Assembly (NCBI GenBank): GCA_011089965.1
Contig: JAANAU010000010.1
Span: forward strand, 1-64,000
Reading direction: 5' to 3'
Source of the DNA: Magnetococcales bacterium
Lineage (GTDB): Bacteria > Pseudomonadota > Magnetococcia > Magnetococcales > Magnetaquicoccaceae
DNA: 64,000 nucleotides
Position numbers and translations under genes: made by a program. The first letter of the stretch is position 1. Each line of letters opens with the position of its first letter. Below, one piece after another: positions 7,352 through 60,183 of the stretch. The notes under the pieces were generated by a model. That model made no database searches and was not told the origin of the DNA. It worked only from the letters and a program-made list of their open reading frames with translations.

Positions 7352-7660
7352 TTTTAAACCAAAACCATTTTGGAATGTGGAATTTGTTTTGTTGGGGCGT
7401 TGCCCCAAACCCCACCAAGGGCGTTGCCCTTGGATCCCACCAGGGGCCATTGGCCCCTGGACCCTCTTGACATCAACGACGCATCCCGAAATGGGTGCGG
7501 TTTAATGATTGAGAAAAAAGAGGGGGTCTGGGGGATTCATCCCCCAGGGTTTTAATGTTTTAATATTTTAATATTTTAATATTTTAATAATAAAATTTTT
7601 AAATATTGTTTGTTTAAAAGATTTAAAGTCCCAGGGTGGCTCTTGCCCCTGGATTCCTGA
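7352..7660 (+). repeat. Composite intergenic repeat, copy 2 (type II followed by type I)
   Basis: The longest copy. The type II half (7352-7507) repeats copy 1. The type I half begins with an A-run and AGAGGGGGT, then the palindrome 7528-7547 (9-bp arms CTGGGGGAT/ATCCCCCAG), a spacer of TTTTAATAT-like tandem units (7551-7600), TTTAAAAGATTTAAAG, and a decayed terminal hairpin around 7630-7650. It fills the gap between the Rel/Spo gene and fkbM. Confidence 0.88.
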
Positions 7661-54492: not shown

Positions 54493-55383
54493 TCATGGCG
54501 GGGGGATGTAACCGTTGCGCGTCAGGATCTCCCGCCCCTCACGCCCCTGAATCCAGACCAGGAATTTTTTCAATGGCGCAGCAGGTTCCCCCATCGTGTA
54601 CAGATAAAGAGAACGGGCCAAGGGATAAACCTGATCCACCGTGGCACTCATGGTGGGAGGAACACACGGGGCATTGGGGGCATGGTCCTTGGAAACACAC
54701 AACGTCTTGACCGCATTGGTGACAAAGGCTGTCCCGGAATAGCCAATGGCACACGGAGCCTGAGCCACCATGGCCACAATGGCATCCGCCGACTCGGTGC
54801 TGACCTTCTGGGAGTCGAATTGATCATGCTTGTCCAGAATGGTCTGACGGAAAAAGAGATAGGTTCCGGAGTTGTTCTTGCGCCCGATGGGCAGAATCTT
54901 CTGCTCCGGACAACCCGGCACCTGTACCCCCAACTCGGTCCAGGTCATGGCCTGACTGCTCTTGCTGTAAATATCCGTCAATTGCTGCAACGATACCCCG
55001 TTGATGGGATTGGAAGGATGCACAACCACCGAAACCGCATCCCGTGCCACAACATGTTCAACCGGAACCACGTGGGCGTTTTTTTTGCGAAACAGTTGCC
55101 ATTCACGCTCCCGCAAAAGACGACTGGAGGATGCCACCTCGACATGACCGTTGATCAGAGCGGCAATGCCATTGCCTGATCCGCCTCCGCTCACCTCAAA
55201 ACGTACCCCGGGTTCGCGCTCCTGATAAACCCGTACCCACTCCTTGAGGGCTTTGGTCAGGGTGTCGGATCCTTTGATGCGAATCAAAGTCACCCCTTCT
55301 GCTGCCAAGACCACTGTCGGCCAGACACCCATGCCAAGGCATCCAAACAACAGCCACAAGAGTCGGATCCAATGGGTTTTCAT
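54493..55383 (-). CDS. PstS-like periplasmic phosphate/ligand-binding protein
   Basis: 296-residue exported protein. Signal peptide (WIRLLWLLFGCLGMGVWPTVVLAA) followed by a type-2 periplasmic-binding fold with the phosphate-binding signatures IKGSDTLTK, SGGGSGNGIAAL and GRKNNSGTYLFF. In true PstS these residues hold phosphate; the fit is good but the substrate is not certain. No pstCAB genes are nearby. It is the last gene of a minus-strand operon headed by the DUF2782 protein. Confidence 0.8.
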   Translation of the reverse strand: MKTHWIRLLWLLFGCLGMGVWPTVVLAAEGVTLIRIKGSDTLTKALKEWVRVYQEREPGVRFEVSGGGSGNGIAALINGHVEVASSSRLLREREWQLFRKKNAHVVPVEHVVARDAVSVVVHPSNPINGVSLQQLTDIYSKSSQAMTWTELGVQVPGCPEQKILPIGRKNNSGTYLFFRQTILDKHDQFDSQKVSTESADAIVAMVAQAPCAIGYSGTAFVTNAVKTLCVSKDHAPNAPCVPPTMSATVDQVYPLARSLYLYTMGEPAAPLKKFLVWIQGREGREILTRNGYIPPP

Positions 55384-55395
55384 AAACCGTCCCAA

Positions 55396-57612
55396 TCAGG
55401 TTGGCAAGGCACGAAACGTCAAACAGTCCACATGCCGGGCAGGGGCGGGGAGAGCCGAATCCAACTCCTTGGCGGTCAACCAGATCTGCGTACCACCACG
55501 CCCGAATCCTTGCAACAAGGCCAACATCTCCTGGGCTGCCCGACGATCCAGAAGCGTGAACGGCGCATCCATCAACATCACATATCTCTGCCCGGGAAAA
55601 CGGGCCTCCCAGGCCAGACACAAGGCCATGCGCACAGCCAAGGCAAGCTTGTGACGCAGACCGCTGGAAAGCTCTGCCATGGACAACACCGCAGAATCGG
55701 TCGCCCGCACCAGGGTGATCGTACCATCAACCGCCACCTGCGGTCTGCCCGGACCGGAAACCAACAACCCCATGATCCGACCCATCTCCTGCAAGAACAC
55801 GCCATGCAGCTCCTGACAAGCCTGGTCCAGAACGGCACGCGCCTCCTGACGTACAACGACCTGCTGTTGCACAGCGGCCTTTTCCTGACTCAATGCCATG
55901 ATGGTGGCACGCAGGCGACTGCGCGTGCGCCGCCGTCCCTGTTCATGAGCCACCTCTTGAGCCGTGCGCCAGGTGATCTGACCCAGACGTACCGGTTCAG
56001 AAGCGGCCTGCTGTTGCTGAACCTGCAACAGACCATATACAGCCTGAACCTGCTCCTGACACGCCAGAAGCGCCTCTTGCAGTTGATGACACTCCTGACT
56101 CCATAACGTCTCATCCAGCAGCGGCAGCCCGGTGTCACGCATCCAGCTGCGCATTTCCAATGCCTGTGGCAAGGCATCCAACGTCTCCAACGTGTTCACC
56201 TGGTCCGACAGTGAAAGACCTCCTGTCTGCGGGACGGTATCGATGATCTGCCAGGCTGTGATCACCTGTTGATCCAACCCGGCAGCCTGCCGCTCCAGGG
56301 AACGCAGTCTGGCCCCGGAACGCCAGCGTCCGGTCAGAGCGCACAGGAGCAACAAGAGAGGCAAAGCCGTGACCGTCATCATCACCAGAGTCGATGTGAG
56401 CACCATGCCCGGCAGATGCTGGTTGAGCAGACCGGTCAACAGCGGTGCGAATCTGGCCTGAAGCACTTGATTCCAAAGGATGCCTGAAGCAAACCAGAAG
56501 ATCGGGATCAACAGCGCGAACAGTTGCGCGCGACGACCTTGACGGATGCGCTTCTGCTGCGCCTGATGACGACTCTGCTCCAGCAGGATGCGTTGGGTGG
56601 CCAGGGTTGATGTGGAGGAGTCTGCGGCAGGCTCCTCCCCAAGCCAGACCAGCAGCCGGTTCCGTTCCGCATCCATCTGCTGCAACACGGCTTCCAAGGC
56701 AGCCAGGCGGGTGTGGAGACGGCCAAGCCAACTGCTGACATGTGTGGTGGGAGCGCCCTGGTTGGCCAGGTGTTCCGTGGCAAACGCTCCTTCCATCTCC
56801 CCCAGGGCCTGTTTCAGGGCAGAGGTGGCCTGACGCCATGCGGTCAGCGGGGCTGATGCGGTCAGAGTGGTGATCCGGGTTGCGGCCTTGTCGATCCGTT
56901 GGGCAGCCTGCCGGAGCGCCTCTTCCAGGCCGGTCCAGCGGGCACAGATGGCGTGGGCGCGGGCAAGCTGATCCTGTGCGCGGTCGTGGTCCGCCTCCAG
57001 CCGGTTCAGGAGATCATCCCGAACGCCCAGAGAGACGATCTCCTCCTGGCAAGCCTGTTGCGCACGGGTAAGCTCGGCGATTTGACCGTCAAGCCGGGTC
57101 GTTTCGGCATGCAGCATGGCAGCGATTTGTGCCAAAGCGGTTTCACCCGACACAGGGGCAACCGAGGCAAACGGTTTGGCATGACGGCTTCTGGCCAGAT
57201 ACCAGGAGTCGATGGCCCATGCGAAATCGCCTCCCAAAAGTTGGATCATGGCCTGATCCACGGATTCCGCCCCGATGGCCATGGGCTGATCCGCACCCGC
57301 GCGGGTGAGGGTGACCTGATGGCTGCCCTGGGTGTCGAGGGTGCGGTGCAAGGTATAATGGCTCTGGTCAACGGTCTGGAAGTCCAGGGTGACCCAGGCG
57401 CGTTCTGCACCCCAGCGGATGGCCCTGGTCAAGGTGTTGCGTGCGAGATGCGCCGTGCGGCCATACAACGCACAACAAAGGATTTCCAGGATGGCCGATT
57501 TGCCCGAGTCGCCAGGACCGGTGAGCAGAATCACTCCTTCCATCGGCAGATCATGCAGATCCAGACGGTTGAAGCAGAACAGGTTTTCGGATTGCAACCT
57601 CTGAATGATCAT
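55396..57612 (-). CDS. Membrane-anchored SMC/Rad50-like ATPase
   Basis: 738-residue ATPase of the SMC/Rad50/YhaN kind, not assigned to a named family. Walker A is TGPGDSGKS (31-39); two long coiled-coil regions (about 165-355 and 430-640) flank two transmembrane helices at about 364-381 and 402-427; the ABC-type signature ELSSGLRHKLALA is near 647 and Walker B near 682 reads LMDAPFTLLD, with alanine where a catalytic Glu is usual. It would thus be a split ATPase anchored by its hinge in the membrane. It overlaps the small upstream gene by ATGA. Function unknown. Confidence 0.75.
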   Translation of the reverse strand: MIIQRLQSENLFCFNRLDLHDLPMEGVILLTGPGDSGKSAILEILCCALYGRTAHLARNTLTRAIRWGAERAWVTLDFQTVDQSHYTLHRTLDTQGSHQVTLTRAGADQPMAIGAESVDQAMIQLLGGDFAWAIDSWYLARSRHAKPFASVAPVSGETALAQIAAMLHAETTRLDGQIAELTRAQQACQEEIVSLGVRDDLLNRLEADHDRAQDQLARAHAICARWTGLEEALRQAAQRIDKAATRITTLTASAPLTAWRQATSALKQALGEMEGAFATEHLANQGAPTTHVSSWLGRLHTRLAALEAVLQQMDAERNRLLVWLGEEPAADSSTSTLATQRILLEQSRHQAQQKRIRQGRRAQLFALLIPIFWFASGILWNQVLQARFAPLLTGLLNQHLPGMVLTSTLVMMTVTALPLLLLLCALTGRWRSGARLRSLERQAAGLDQQVITAWQIIDTVPQTGGLSLSDQVNTLETLDALPQALEMRSWMRDTGLPLLDETLWSQECHQLQEALLACQEQVQAVYGLLQVQQQQAASEPVRLGQITWRTAQEVAHEQGRRRTRSRLRATIMALSQEKAAVQQQVVVRQEARAVLDQACQELHGVFLQEMGRIMGLLVSGPGRPQVAVDGTITLVRATDSAVLSMAELSSGLRHKLALAVRMALCLAWEARFPGQRYVMLMDAPFTLLDRRAAQEMLALLQGFGRGGTQIWLTAKELDSALPAPARHVDCLTFRALPT

Positions 57613-57812
57613 GCGCTTGGCTCTCCAGACGAACGCAGGGTGTGCAGACGCTCCAGCAGCAGTTCCGTGGCAGCCTTGCCGGATGCGGGCTGGCGACCCG
57701 CAGCAGCGGGCTGGGGCTGTTCCAGTCGTTGGCGGCAGAATTGTTCCAGAAAGAGCAGAGGATCTGCAACGCGGAAACGGGCGTCAGGGTTTTCGGGAGC
57801 GGACAAGGGCAT
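57609..57812 (-). CDS. Small protein coupled to the SMC-like ATPase
   Basis: 67 residues, no recognisable family. It is hydrophilic, with a Pro/Ala-rich middle (QPQPAAAGRQPASGKAA) and a short helical end. GAGGTG precedes the ATG by five bases, and its stop overlaps the ATPase start (ATGA), so it is probably a real gene translated together with it. It may be a partner or regulator of the ATPase. Confidence 0.55.
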   Translation of the reverse strand: MPLSAPENPDARFRVADPLLFLEQFCRQRLEQPQPAAAGRQPASGKAATELLLERLHTLRSSGEPSA

Positions 57813-57931: not shown

Positions 57932-59020
57932 TTAAATAGAGATTTGGACCGGCAGAAAGCCGTTGCCCGGCTCACGGAAATTGGTCACCTGACCGCGATA
58001 GGCGCGGGCTGCCACCCCCAGGATCTGGTCGCGATAGACGAACAGGCGGATGTCATACTTGAAGAGTGTGCCGGATGGTGCCATGCGCAGGGTGGGAGGG
58101 GGCACAAGGCTTTGCACCAGGGTTGCGCCATCCAGGCTGTCGAAGCGGGTGCGGCTGATTTTATCCCCCAACAGCACGCCCCGGCCCCCAAATCCTTGAG
58201 AGGGCTTGAAGACCCAGCGGGCGCGCTCCTTCCAGAGGGCGGTGCGGTCGAGGGTGGAGAGGAGTCGGGTGGTGGGGATGGTGTCAGTCAGCAGGCGGAT
58301 GGCATCCGGGGCAACACCCCGGGCGAGCAGGGTGTCAGGGTCTGACCAGGTGATCAGATGGCGTTTGTCGGCCAAAAGGGCATAGGCGCGCGGGTTGGGG
58401 GTCAGACAGAGTTGACGGTTGAGCCAGGCGGCACGCAGTCCGGCCAGGGAAGGGGTCTCCAGATAGAAATCACAGTGGCGGTTGTAGATCAGGTCAACCG
58501 GCGCGCCATGCAGGGTCACTCCGGAGGCGTCCATCCGGAGTTCGGCAGGGTCGTGGATGGAGCAGGGTATGCCGACCGCGTTCAACAGTGCGGCACAGGC
58601 TTGCATCTCGGGATAAAGAAACTGGTTGGCGGGTTGTTCGTCCAGGATCACCATGCGGTTGATAACGGGCCGGGGTGTTTGGCGGAAAAGGGCCATCTCT
58701 TGCATAAAGGTGGCCAGCAGTCGCTGCGGGTGACGGGACAAAGGATCCAGAGGTTGGGTTTGATCGGGATGCTGGGCGGTATGGGCCATGAGGGCACCGC
58801 CTGCATTGGTGTTGACTTCGATCAGGCGCGGTCCGTTCGGGGTCAGGTGAAAATCATAGCCCATCATCACGGCTTCATGACCGGGATCAAAGCGGGCGGT
58901 GTCCGGGGTGTCGGGCCAGGGTTGGGCCTGCTGGAGTGCCAATCGGCGCAATAGACGGGTCATGCGGATCATGGTGCGCAGATGTTTTCTTGCAAGGATG
59001 ACGACATTTTGGGTGGTCAT
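57932..59020 (-). CDS. ATP-grasp family protein
   Basis: 362-residue member of a conserved uncharacterised group with an ATP-grasp-like C-terminal domain. Seen: MMGYDFHLTPNGPRLIEVNTNAGGALM near the N-terminus, the DLIYNRHCDFYLETPSL segment, the nucleotide-binding WVFKPSQGFGGRGVLLGDK block and the end YDIRLFVYRDQILGVAARAYRGQVTNFREPGNGF. The enzyme probably joins a carboxylate to an amine, but the substrates are unknown. ATG at 59020 overlaps the stop of the MFS carrier. Confidence 0.75.
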   Translation of the reverse strand: MTTQNVVILARKHLRTMIRMTRLLRRLALQQAQPWPDTPDTARFDPGHEAVMMGYDFHLTPNGPRLIEVNTNAGGALMAHTAQHPDQTQPLDPLSRHPQRLLATFMQEMALFRQTPRPVINRMVILDEQPANQFLYPEMQACAALLNAVGIPCSIHDPAELRMDASGVTLHGAPVDLIYNRHCDFYLETPSLAGLRAAWLNRQLCLTPNPRAYALLADKRHLITWSDPDTLLARGVAPDAIRLLTDTIPTTRLLSTLDRTALWKERARWVFKPSQGFGGRGVLLGDKISRTRFDSLDGATLVQSLVPPPTLRMAPSGTLFKYDIRLFVYRDQILGVAARAYRGQVTNFREPGNGFLPVQISI

Positions 59021-60183
59021 GGGGCAATCCCGGTGCGGGCAAACAACGTGGCGGCACGCCAGGAGGCCAGGGTGCCGAACAGGGCGGCCAATGCCAACAT
59101 GGCAAACATGGTTTCGTGACCGAATCGTTCCAGCACCAGACCGGAGAGGGCCATGCTCACTCCGCCGCCCAGGCCATAGGAGAGGGCGCCCAGCCATCCC
59201 TGGGCAGTGCCACGGGCCTGGATCGGAGCCAGATCGTGTACGCGGCGGATCGAGGCCACATGAAAGGCCCCAAAGGTGAAGGCGTGCAGGAGTTGGGCAG
59301 CGCCCAGCCAGATCCACTCCGTGGTGGTGGCGTAGACCGACCAGCGCACTGCTGCCAGCAACAGTGAAAAGGTGAGCAGACGGGTCACGCCGACCCGGTC
59401 GAGCAGGGTGCGTGAGCGGCTCATCAACACCACTTCGGCCACCACACCCACAGCCCACAGCAGTCCGATCAGGGTGCGGGAGAAACCGTGTTGTTGCAGG
59501 TGGAGGGACATGAACCCATAATACCCGCCATGGGAGAACTGCATCAGGGTGGCGCTGAAATAGAACCATTTGACATCGGCCCGGGCAAACAGGGTGCGGA
59601 TCGAGGTGTGTTGACCCGCATGGTTCGGGGTGCGGGGCAGCCGCAAGGCGCAGAGCAGATTAGCCAGCAGCAACAGCAGGATCACCATCGGGATGGTCTG
59701 GAGTCCGAGTTGATCGCTGATCGGACCCAACCCCAGGGAACAGAGGATGAATCCCCAGGAACCCCAGAGGCGCAACTGGCCGTAATCCCAATGATGTTTG
59801 ACGGACAGCTCCATGGCCGTGGCATCGGTCAAAGCCAGAGGTCCGGCGTGAAAGAGGCTGTAAAGAATGGTGACCCCCAGGATCCAGTCGAGCCGGGTAT
59901 CCAGGAAGAAGAGGCCAAAGGAGACCAGAGAGCCGGTACAGGTCAGAACCACCACGTTGTAACGGCTGCCCCGGTCGGCCACGTAGCCCCAGCCTGGCGG
60001 GGCCGGGATGCGCATCCACTGGGTCAGGGCGGTCAACAGGCCGATGGTTTGGGGAGTGACCCCCAGGCTGGTCAGATGGAGCGGCCAATAGGGGATCCAG
60101 ACGCCCACCACGGCAAAGTAGGTGGCGTAGAATCCGATCAGCGGCCAACGGGATGGCGTGGTCAATAGCGGAACAGCACCCAT
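59017..60183 (-). CDS. MFS transporter, HcaT-like
   Basis: 388-residue twelve-helix carrier of the MFS_1-like group that includes the phenylpropionate transporter HcaT and nucleoside permeases. The N-terminus FYATYFAVVGVWIPYWPLHLTSLGVTP, the QLRLWGSWGFILCSLGLGPISDQ motif and the GLQTIP helix match this group. Its start overlaps the end of the DUF2782 gene by 22 bp. Substrate not known. Confidence 0.82.
   Translation of the reverse strand: MGAVPLLTTPSRWPLIGFYATYFAVVGVWIPYWPLHLTSLGVTPQTIGLLTALTQWMRIPAPPGWGYVADRGSRYNVVVLTCTGSLVSFGLFFLDTRLDWILGVTILYSLFHAGPLALTDATAMELSVKHHWDYGQLRLWGSWGFILCSLGLGPISDQLGLQTIPMVILLLLLANLLCALRLPRTPNHAGQHTSIRTLFARADVKWFYFSATLMQFSHGGYYGFMSLHLQQHGFSRTLIGLLWAVGVVAEVVLMSRSRTLLDRVGVTRLLTFSLLLAAVRWSVYATTTEWIWLGAAQLLHAFTFGAFHVASIRRVHDLAPIQARGTAQGWLGALSYGLGGGVSMALSGLVLERFGHETMFAMLALAALFGTLASWRAATLFARTGIAP

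Follow-up and report, generated by a model that had tools for sequence, protein, structure and literature searches.

A Rad50-type ATPase with a predicted membrane hairpin and an overlapping small partner gene in Magnetococcales

Rad50-type ATPases are usually regarded as soluble partners of nucleases, and the C-terminal region of Mre11 is known as the Rad50-binding domain. Around this core lies a wider range of related systems: ABC ATPases with coiled coils, defence systems with a Rad50-like ATPase (Lamassu) and YhaN-type proteins with membrane peaks are all either known already or seen here, and it is possible that the ATPase family treated below has itself been described earlier. Within Lamassu, the LmuB protein has lost the Walker-B glutamate (PMC10586767). 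The locus considered here lies on the minus strand of a 64,000-nucleotide stretch from a Magnetococcales bacterium (assembly GCA_011089965.1, contig JAANAU010000010.1, positions 1 to 64,000), called the window throughout, and comprises an ATPase gene and a small gene that overlaps its start.

The ATPase and its apex

The ATPase is encoded by an intact open reading frame with the following features, helical arms being taken from the secondary structure of an AlphaFold model:

55396..57612, minus strand: Rad50-type ABC ATPase, 738 aa, with a predicted membrane hairpin at the coiled-coil apex (open reading frame; relatives, PDB profile and Foldseek)
57496..57519, minus strand: Walker A, GPGDSGKS, residues 32-39 (sequence; Lys38 in 83/83)
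57190..57192, minus strand: Q-loop position 141, Arg in the window copy (Gln in 74/83 relatives)
56539..57144, minus strand: N-terminal arm, helical, residues 157-358 (AlphaFold)
56473..56529, minus strand: predicted transmembrane helix 1, residues 362-380 (Kyte-Doolittle 1.81; conserved among relatives)
56335..56391, minus strand: predicted transmembrane helix 2, residues 408-426 (Kyte-Doolittle 2.37; conserved among relatives)
55759..56325, minus strand: C-terminal arm, helical, residues 430-618 (AlphaFold)
55660..55671, minus strand: ABC signature LSSG, residues 648-651, intact (Ser649 in 83/83)
55558..55581, minus strand: Walker B, VMLMDAPF, residues 678-685, with codon 683 GCG = Ala (Glu in 82/83)

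The head is thus split into an N-lobe with the Walker A motif and a C-lobe with the signature, the Walker B motif and the D-loop (Asp689), and the two lobes are separated by long helices in the AlphaFold model. AlphaFold models of both proteins of the locus, which the first-pass annotation had proposed as a check, were run; that of the ATPase has a mean pLDDT of 82.7 and a pTM of 0.44, i.e., its local structure is good and the overall geometry of its arms is of low confidence. Against the PDB, the profile of the ATPase family finds the Rad50 of M. jannaschii as its best match (E 2e-34), and the top Foldseek match of the model is the Rad50 of the Mre11-Rad50-Nbs1 complex 7zr1 (E 8e-16). The global TM-scores of the Foldseek matches are low and their rmsd values high, so that reliance is limited to the head and to the helical nature of the arms. 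Rad50 is a far better match to the head than transporter ATPases are, and the split Rad50-like head and long helical arms that characterise the fold of the Rad50/SbcC superfamily are both present in the window ATPase. Among curated families, none scores above its own cut-off except the generic AAA_23, and the best score against the NCBIfam equivalog models for Rad50/SbcC is 39.5 bits vs a cut-off of 1087.

The apex of the window ATPase has neither the CxxC zinc hook nor the globular hinge of SMC proteins; in their place, the arms are broken by the two hydrophobic helices, and no kleisin was seen in the neighbourhoods. Exactly two central hydrophobic peaks are found in 77 of the 83 ATPase relatives, the remainder having one or an extra weak peak, and the number of Lys and Arg per 15 residues falls from 4.5 before the first helix to 0.8 in the loop, rising again to 3.8 behind the second. 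By the positive-inside rule, positively charged flanks mark the cytoplasmic side of the membrane. The conservation of two peaks, taken together with this charge pattern, therefore suggests a hairpin rather than chance hydrophobicity, and the apex is predicted to be a membrane hairpin, which would place the heads in the cytoplasm. These observations sustain much of what the first-pass annotation had read from this DNA, namely an SMC/Rad50-like ATPase with a split head (motifs, PDB profile and Foldseek agree), two membrane helices replacing the hinge, and a protein that fits no named family.

Departures from this architecture are seen in a few relatives. Two of them (L073, 409-3687, and L074, 307-3579) have an ATPase frame of about 1090 aa, extending far past the usual end, with no Walker B near the C-terminus by the pattern used, and in two planctomycete ATPases (L131 and L135) the head is followed by a long C-terminal tail rich in proline and charged residues.

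The small partner gene and the spread of the pair

Directly upstream of the ATPase, and overlapping it, lies the second gene:

57609..57812, minus strand: small partner gene, 67 aa, predicted two-helix hairpin, helices 18-31 and 42-61 (HMM, AlphaFold)
57609..57612, minus strand: ATGA overlap of the small-gene stop with the ATPase start (sequence; translational coupling presumed)

A search with an HMM built from 25 copies places the small gene directly upstream of the ATPase in 32/32 Magnetococcales loci and beside most of the gammaproteobacterial ATPases examined, and the 4-nt overlap recurs in 42 of 57 matches from other lineages. At one further locus (L125) a copy was recovered by gene clustering; another (L096) has in this slot a 100-aa ORF that is a candidate homologue only, and in planctomycete loci the slot is held by ORFs of about 76-128 aa. 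Taken together, nearly every locus examined in gammaproteobacteria and planctomycetes has a small gene directly upstream of the ATPase. The small proteins of Magnetococcales, gammaproteobacteria and planctomycetes form one family in HHalign comparisons between the groups (probability 93-99, E 3e-7 to 1e-17). The AlphaFold model of the 67-aa protein has two main helices at a pLDDT of 73.7, and no meaningful match to the protein was found in Pfam, among PDB sequences or, by Foldseek, among PDB folds; the family is without a name in any library used here. The small frame is evidently a real gene. The first-pass annotation had described a translationally coupled 67-residue gene, suggested examining its co-occurrence with the ATPase and held that a frame that is not conserved would count against its proposal; the overlap and the co-occurrence in Magnetococcales and most gammaproteobacterial loci bear this description out, with the coupling itself being predicted from the overlap, and the frame proves to be conserved. 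The same annotation's remark that a partner nuclease is missing likewise stands, as no nuclease adjoins the pair at the window locus.

Relatives of the ATPase occur in 33 of the 61 genomes searched among the relatives of the source genome, and a sample of 399 genomes from the phylum yielded 33 matches at E 1e-20, every one of them within Magnetococcales; a scan of contigs adds gammaproteobacteria and planctomycetes. The occurrence is thus restricted and not universal, and the ATPase and the small gene constitute, judging from these matches, a conserved two-gene module in at least three bacterial groups, its carriers being Magnetococcales, sulphur-oxidising gammaproteobacteria and planctomycetes. 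Viral contigs have only short head-level matches to the ATPase, and a viral origin was rejected as no full-length viral relative was found. One copy of the ATPase was found in the source genome; a candidate second copy on its contig C22 is a weak match that was read as RecF and rejected. Elsewhere in Magnetococcales, two matches with identical scores in G008 (contigs C5 and C373) suggest an assembly duplicate, whereas two with differing scores in G023 (contigs C69 and C75) suggest two copies.

The module is embedded in a neighbourhood that in Magnetococcales often comprises MFS, ATP-grasp and PstS-like genes, of which the latter two adjoin it in the window:

57932..59080 (start approximate), minus strand: upstream operon neighbour, ATP-grasp-like protein (gene order; weak ATP-grasp Pfam matches below cut-off; Magnetococcales context only)
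54493..55395, minus strand: downstream neighbour, PstS-family substrate-binding protein (PBP_like_2 1e-34, ptsS_2 2e-53; adjoins in most Magnetococcales loci)

In gammaproteobacteria the neighbours are genes that we take from their sequences to be an RNase II-like gene, ygfZ, lysS, hrpB, rho or hslU, and across lineages the only constant element is the ATPase/small-gene pair. The window also carries a short palindromic repeat, CTGGGGGATTCATCCCCCAG, in eight copies (at 7528, 14845, 20020, 23030, 38001, 44809, 54434 and 60851) vs 0 expected, with about 150 in the genome; T-runs follow the copies that flank the ATPase operon, and the repeat might be a REP-like or terminator-like element.

Phylogenetic position, the nuclease slot and competing readings

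When the heads are placed on a tree rooted on SbcC, YhaN falls into one clade with the clostridial ATPases (100/98), and the window family joins the membrane ATPases of Hermodarchaeota and Ktedonobacteria that are paired with a nuclease (94/87); the ATPases paired with the small gene fall on one side of a branch with moderate support (80/68). The layout is similar when this alignment is run under a second model. The suggestion in the first-pass annotation that YhaN-like proteins are the closest type did not hold: the window ATPase has no match to the Pfam YhaN model AAA_27, against which a rhizobial YhaN scores 215 bits, no YhaO adjoins it and the YhaN clade is another one, and YhaN membership was rejected on these grounds. 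Moreover, relatives such as G001, G028, G035, G042, G045 and G047 carry bona fide YhaO/YhaN gene pairs as genes separate from the module, along with the ATPase/small-gene pair. The source genome encodes SbcCD elsewhere and gave no match to YhaO. Among the Magnetococcales genomes (G001-G047), strong matches to SbcD and matches to YhaO tend to occur in separate genomes, as if the two nuclease-ATPase pairs replace each other.

The sister group bears on the origin of the small protein. In Hermodarchaeota and Ktedonobacteria, a Mre11/YhaO-type metallophosphoesterase lies immediately upstream of the membrane ATPase, which is the very slot of the small gene; within the searched neighbourhoods such an enzyme was found only at L137, L138 and L139, L141 too having one in that slot, and none was found near small-gene-paired ATPases in the Magnetococcales, gammaproteobacterial and planctomycete neighbourhoods searched. 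Given that the nuclease of the nearest relatives occupies this slot, the small protein may correspond to a stand-alone Rad50-binding tail; the Foldseek results of the ATPase model include 5da9, a Rad50 with the Rad50-binding domain of Mre11. When the HMM of the planctomycete small proteins is run against nuclease tails, those of Hermodarchaeota score best: the tail of L141 reaches 10.0 bits (shuffle p 0.0007), higher than any of the 789 background tails, and that of L138 reaches 3.7 bits, in the top 0.4% of the background (shuffle p 0.01), though a low p-value or two among 36 shuffle tests lends weak support. Most other nuclease tails have no resemblance to this HMM, and local HHalign gave no significant match between the small proteins and the tails, a reversed-sequence control once giving an equally low value. 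Homology of the small protein to the nuclease tail is plausible, the sequence resemblance being no more than suggestive. We would rate the chances as about even that the module is related to the Mre11-Rad50 (SbcCD) complex, consists of two genes without a nuclease and is tethered to the inner membrane; the more specific scenario, wherein a Mre11-Rad50 lineage lost its nuclease domain, kept the Rad50-binding tail as a tiny protein and anchored its arm tips in the membrane to yield a nuclease-free, membrane-docked DNA clamp, is put forward tentatively, as something short of probable.

From these sequence comparisons we infer a function along the following lines. As in Rad50, the heads of two ATPases would come together over ATP and close around duplex DNA or a DNA end. 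The hairpin would anchor the arm tips in the membrane and thereby keep the bound DNA there. The small protein may sit at the base of the arms, where the Rad50-binding tail of Mre11 normally docks, and might bridge or gate the two heads, leaving the DNA uncut. If this is right, the DNA-clamping half of the machine has been separated from its cutting half, and one is led to ask what such a module lets bacteria keep at the membrane.

A tentative alternative makes the small protein a partner of separate descent, e.g., a chaperone, a kleisin-like clip or a regulator of the ATPase, that arose or was recruited on its own; that it shares its slot with Mre11-type nucleases would then be coincidence or a convenience of the operon. 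The non-significant HHalign comparisons are in keeping with this, as are the limitation of the resemblance to Hermodarchaeal tails, the empty Foldseek search with the small model and the commonness of two-helix hairpins among folds. It sits less easily with the strict replacement in the slot between sister lineages, the similar two-helix anatomy and the fall of the best tail scores on precisely the sister group.

The window copy departs from its family at two catalytic positions. At Walker-B position 683 it alone among the 83 has Ala, Glu being kept in 82, and at Q-loop position 141 it has Arg where 74 of the 83 have Gln. The first-pass annotation's reading of the Walker-B glutamate as alanine is therefore correct for the window protein and fails as a trait of the family, for which loss of the residue was rejected. 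The codons are GCG at 683, for which a single-base error is possible in principle, and AGA at 141, which is more than one change away from any Gln codon. The end branch of the window ATPase measures 0.87 vs a median of 0.38, and its identity to the outgroup L034 is 33%, compared with 40-45% for the sister ATPases, whereas the ATP-grasp, PstS and next genes of the window are about as close to L034 as are those of the sisters, i.e., the neighbours evolve normally. The Walker-B and Q-loop losses are best read as private changes of a fast-evolving window copy. Judged by what is known of ABC ATPases in general, the window ATPase, with Ala for Glu and Arg for Gln, should, if made, still bind ATP while hydrolysing little or none of it; it would then serve as a static clamp, or else its gene would be under relaxed selection. 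That it is a decaying, non-functional remnant in the source genome appears rather unlikely: the loss of both residues, the long branch and a divergence faster than that of the operon neighbours speak for decay, and against it are the full 738-codon frame, the retention of Walker A, the signature, the Walker-B Asp, the D-loop, the membrane hairpin and the partner gene, and a base composition by codon position that remains gene-like. Either way, the window ATPase offers a natural Walker-B mutant for study.

Instead of a DNA clamp, the module might be an envelope ATPase, e.g., one coupling ATP binding to transport or a cell-wall process together with its MFS, ATP-grasp and PstS-like neighbours. 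The membrane hairpin and the transporter and binding-protein neighbourhood conserved in Magnetococcales would fit such a role, and they are all that backs the "envelope" half of the membrane-linked DNA or envelope machine proposed in the first-pass annotation. We consider this improbable because those neighbours were not seen in gammaproteobacteria and planctomycetes, which have varied housekeeping-type genes there, the head is far nearer to Rad50 than to transporter ATPases, and the nuclease-paired sisters carry a membrane hairpin too. Anti-phage defence of the Lamassu or MADS type, which would draw on the match of the PADLOC LmuB and mad3 models to the head in 30/30 members and on the loss of the Walker-B Glu in LmuB too (PMC10586767), is the least probable reading and was rejected as an assignment, as the PADLOC matches are head-level only (in the window they cover just the head region), no conserved effector gene adjoins, the module is common and syntenic within Magnetococcales rather than patchy or mobile, no full-length viral relative was found and the family at large keeps its Glu.

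Comparison with known systems

The putative membrane-tethered clamp can be set beside several known systems. With SMC-ScpAB and MukBEF the module shares the architecture of a coiled-coil ABC ATPase, but it is without a hinge domain, no kleisin or KITE genes were seen and its arms are much shorter. With the Lamassu proteins LmuB and LmuC it shares a Rad50-like ATPase whose arms are relatively short and, in the window copy, the absence of the Walker-B Glu, as in LmuB (PMC10586767); in contrast to the set of an LmuA effector with LmuB and LmuC, it has no conserved effector neighbour or defence context, resembles LmuB at the level of the head only, carries a membrane hairpin and, as a family, keeps the Glu. 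YhaN (SbcE)/YhaO is likewise a two-gene unit with an SMC-like ATPase, and central transmembrane peaks are seen in one YhaN-type protein from clostridia (L173) as well; however, YhaN has the AAA_27 domain and the YhaO nuclease, belongs to a separate clade and, in the rhizobial YhaN proteins examined, is without such peaks. The module parallels Rad50/SbcC in its split Rad50-type ABC head, antiparallel helical arms, the LDEP Walker B of the family and a partner gene directly upstream, while differing in having a membrane hairpin at the apex instead of a zinc hook, no nuclease subunit and short arms, and SbcCD is encoded separately in the same source genome. The nearest on the tree are the membrane ATPases of Hermodarchaeota and Ktedonobacteria (L137-L139 and L141), the sister group, which have the same two central transmembrane helices and Rad50-type head and which have kept a Mre11/YhaO-type nuclease where the module has its small gene.
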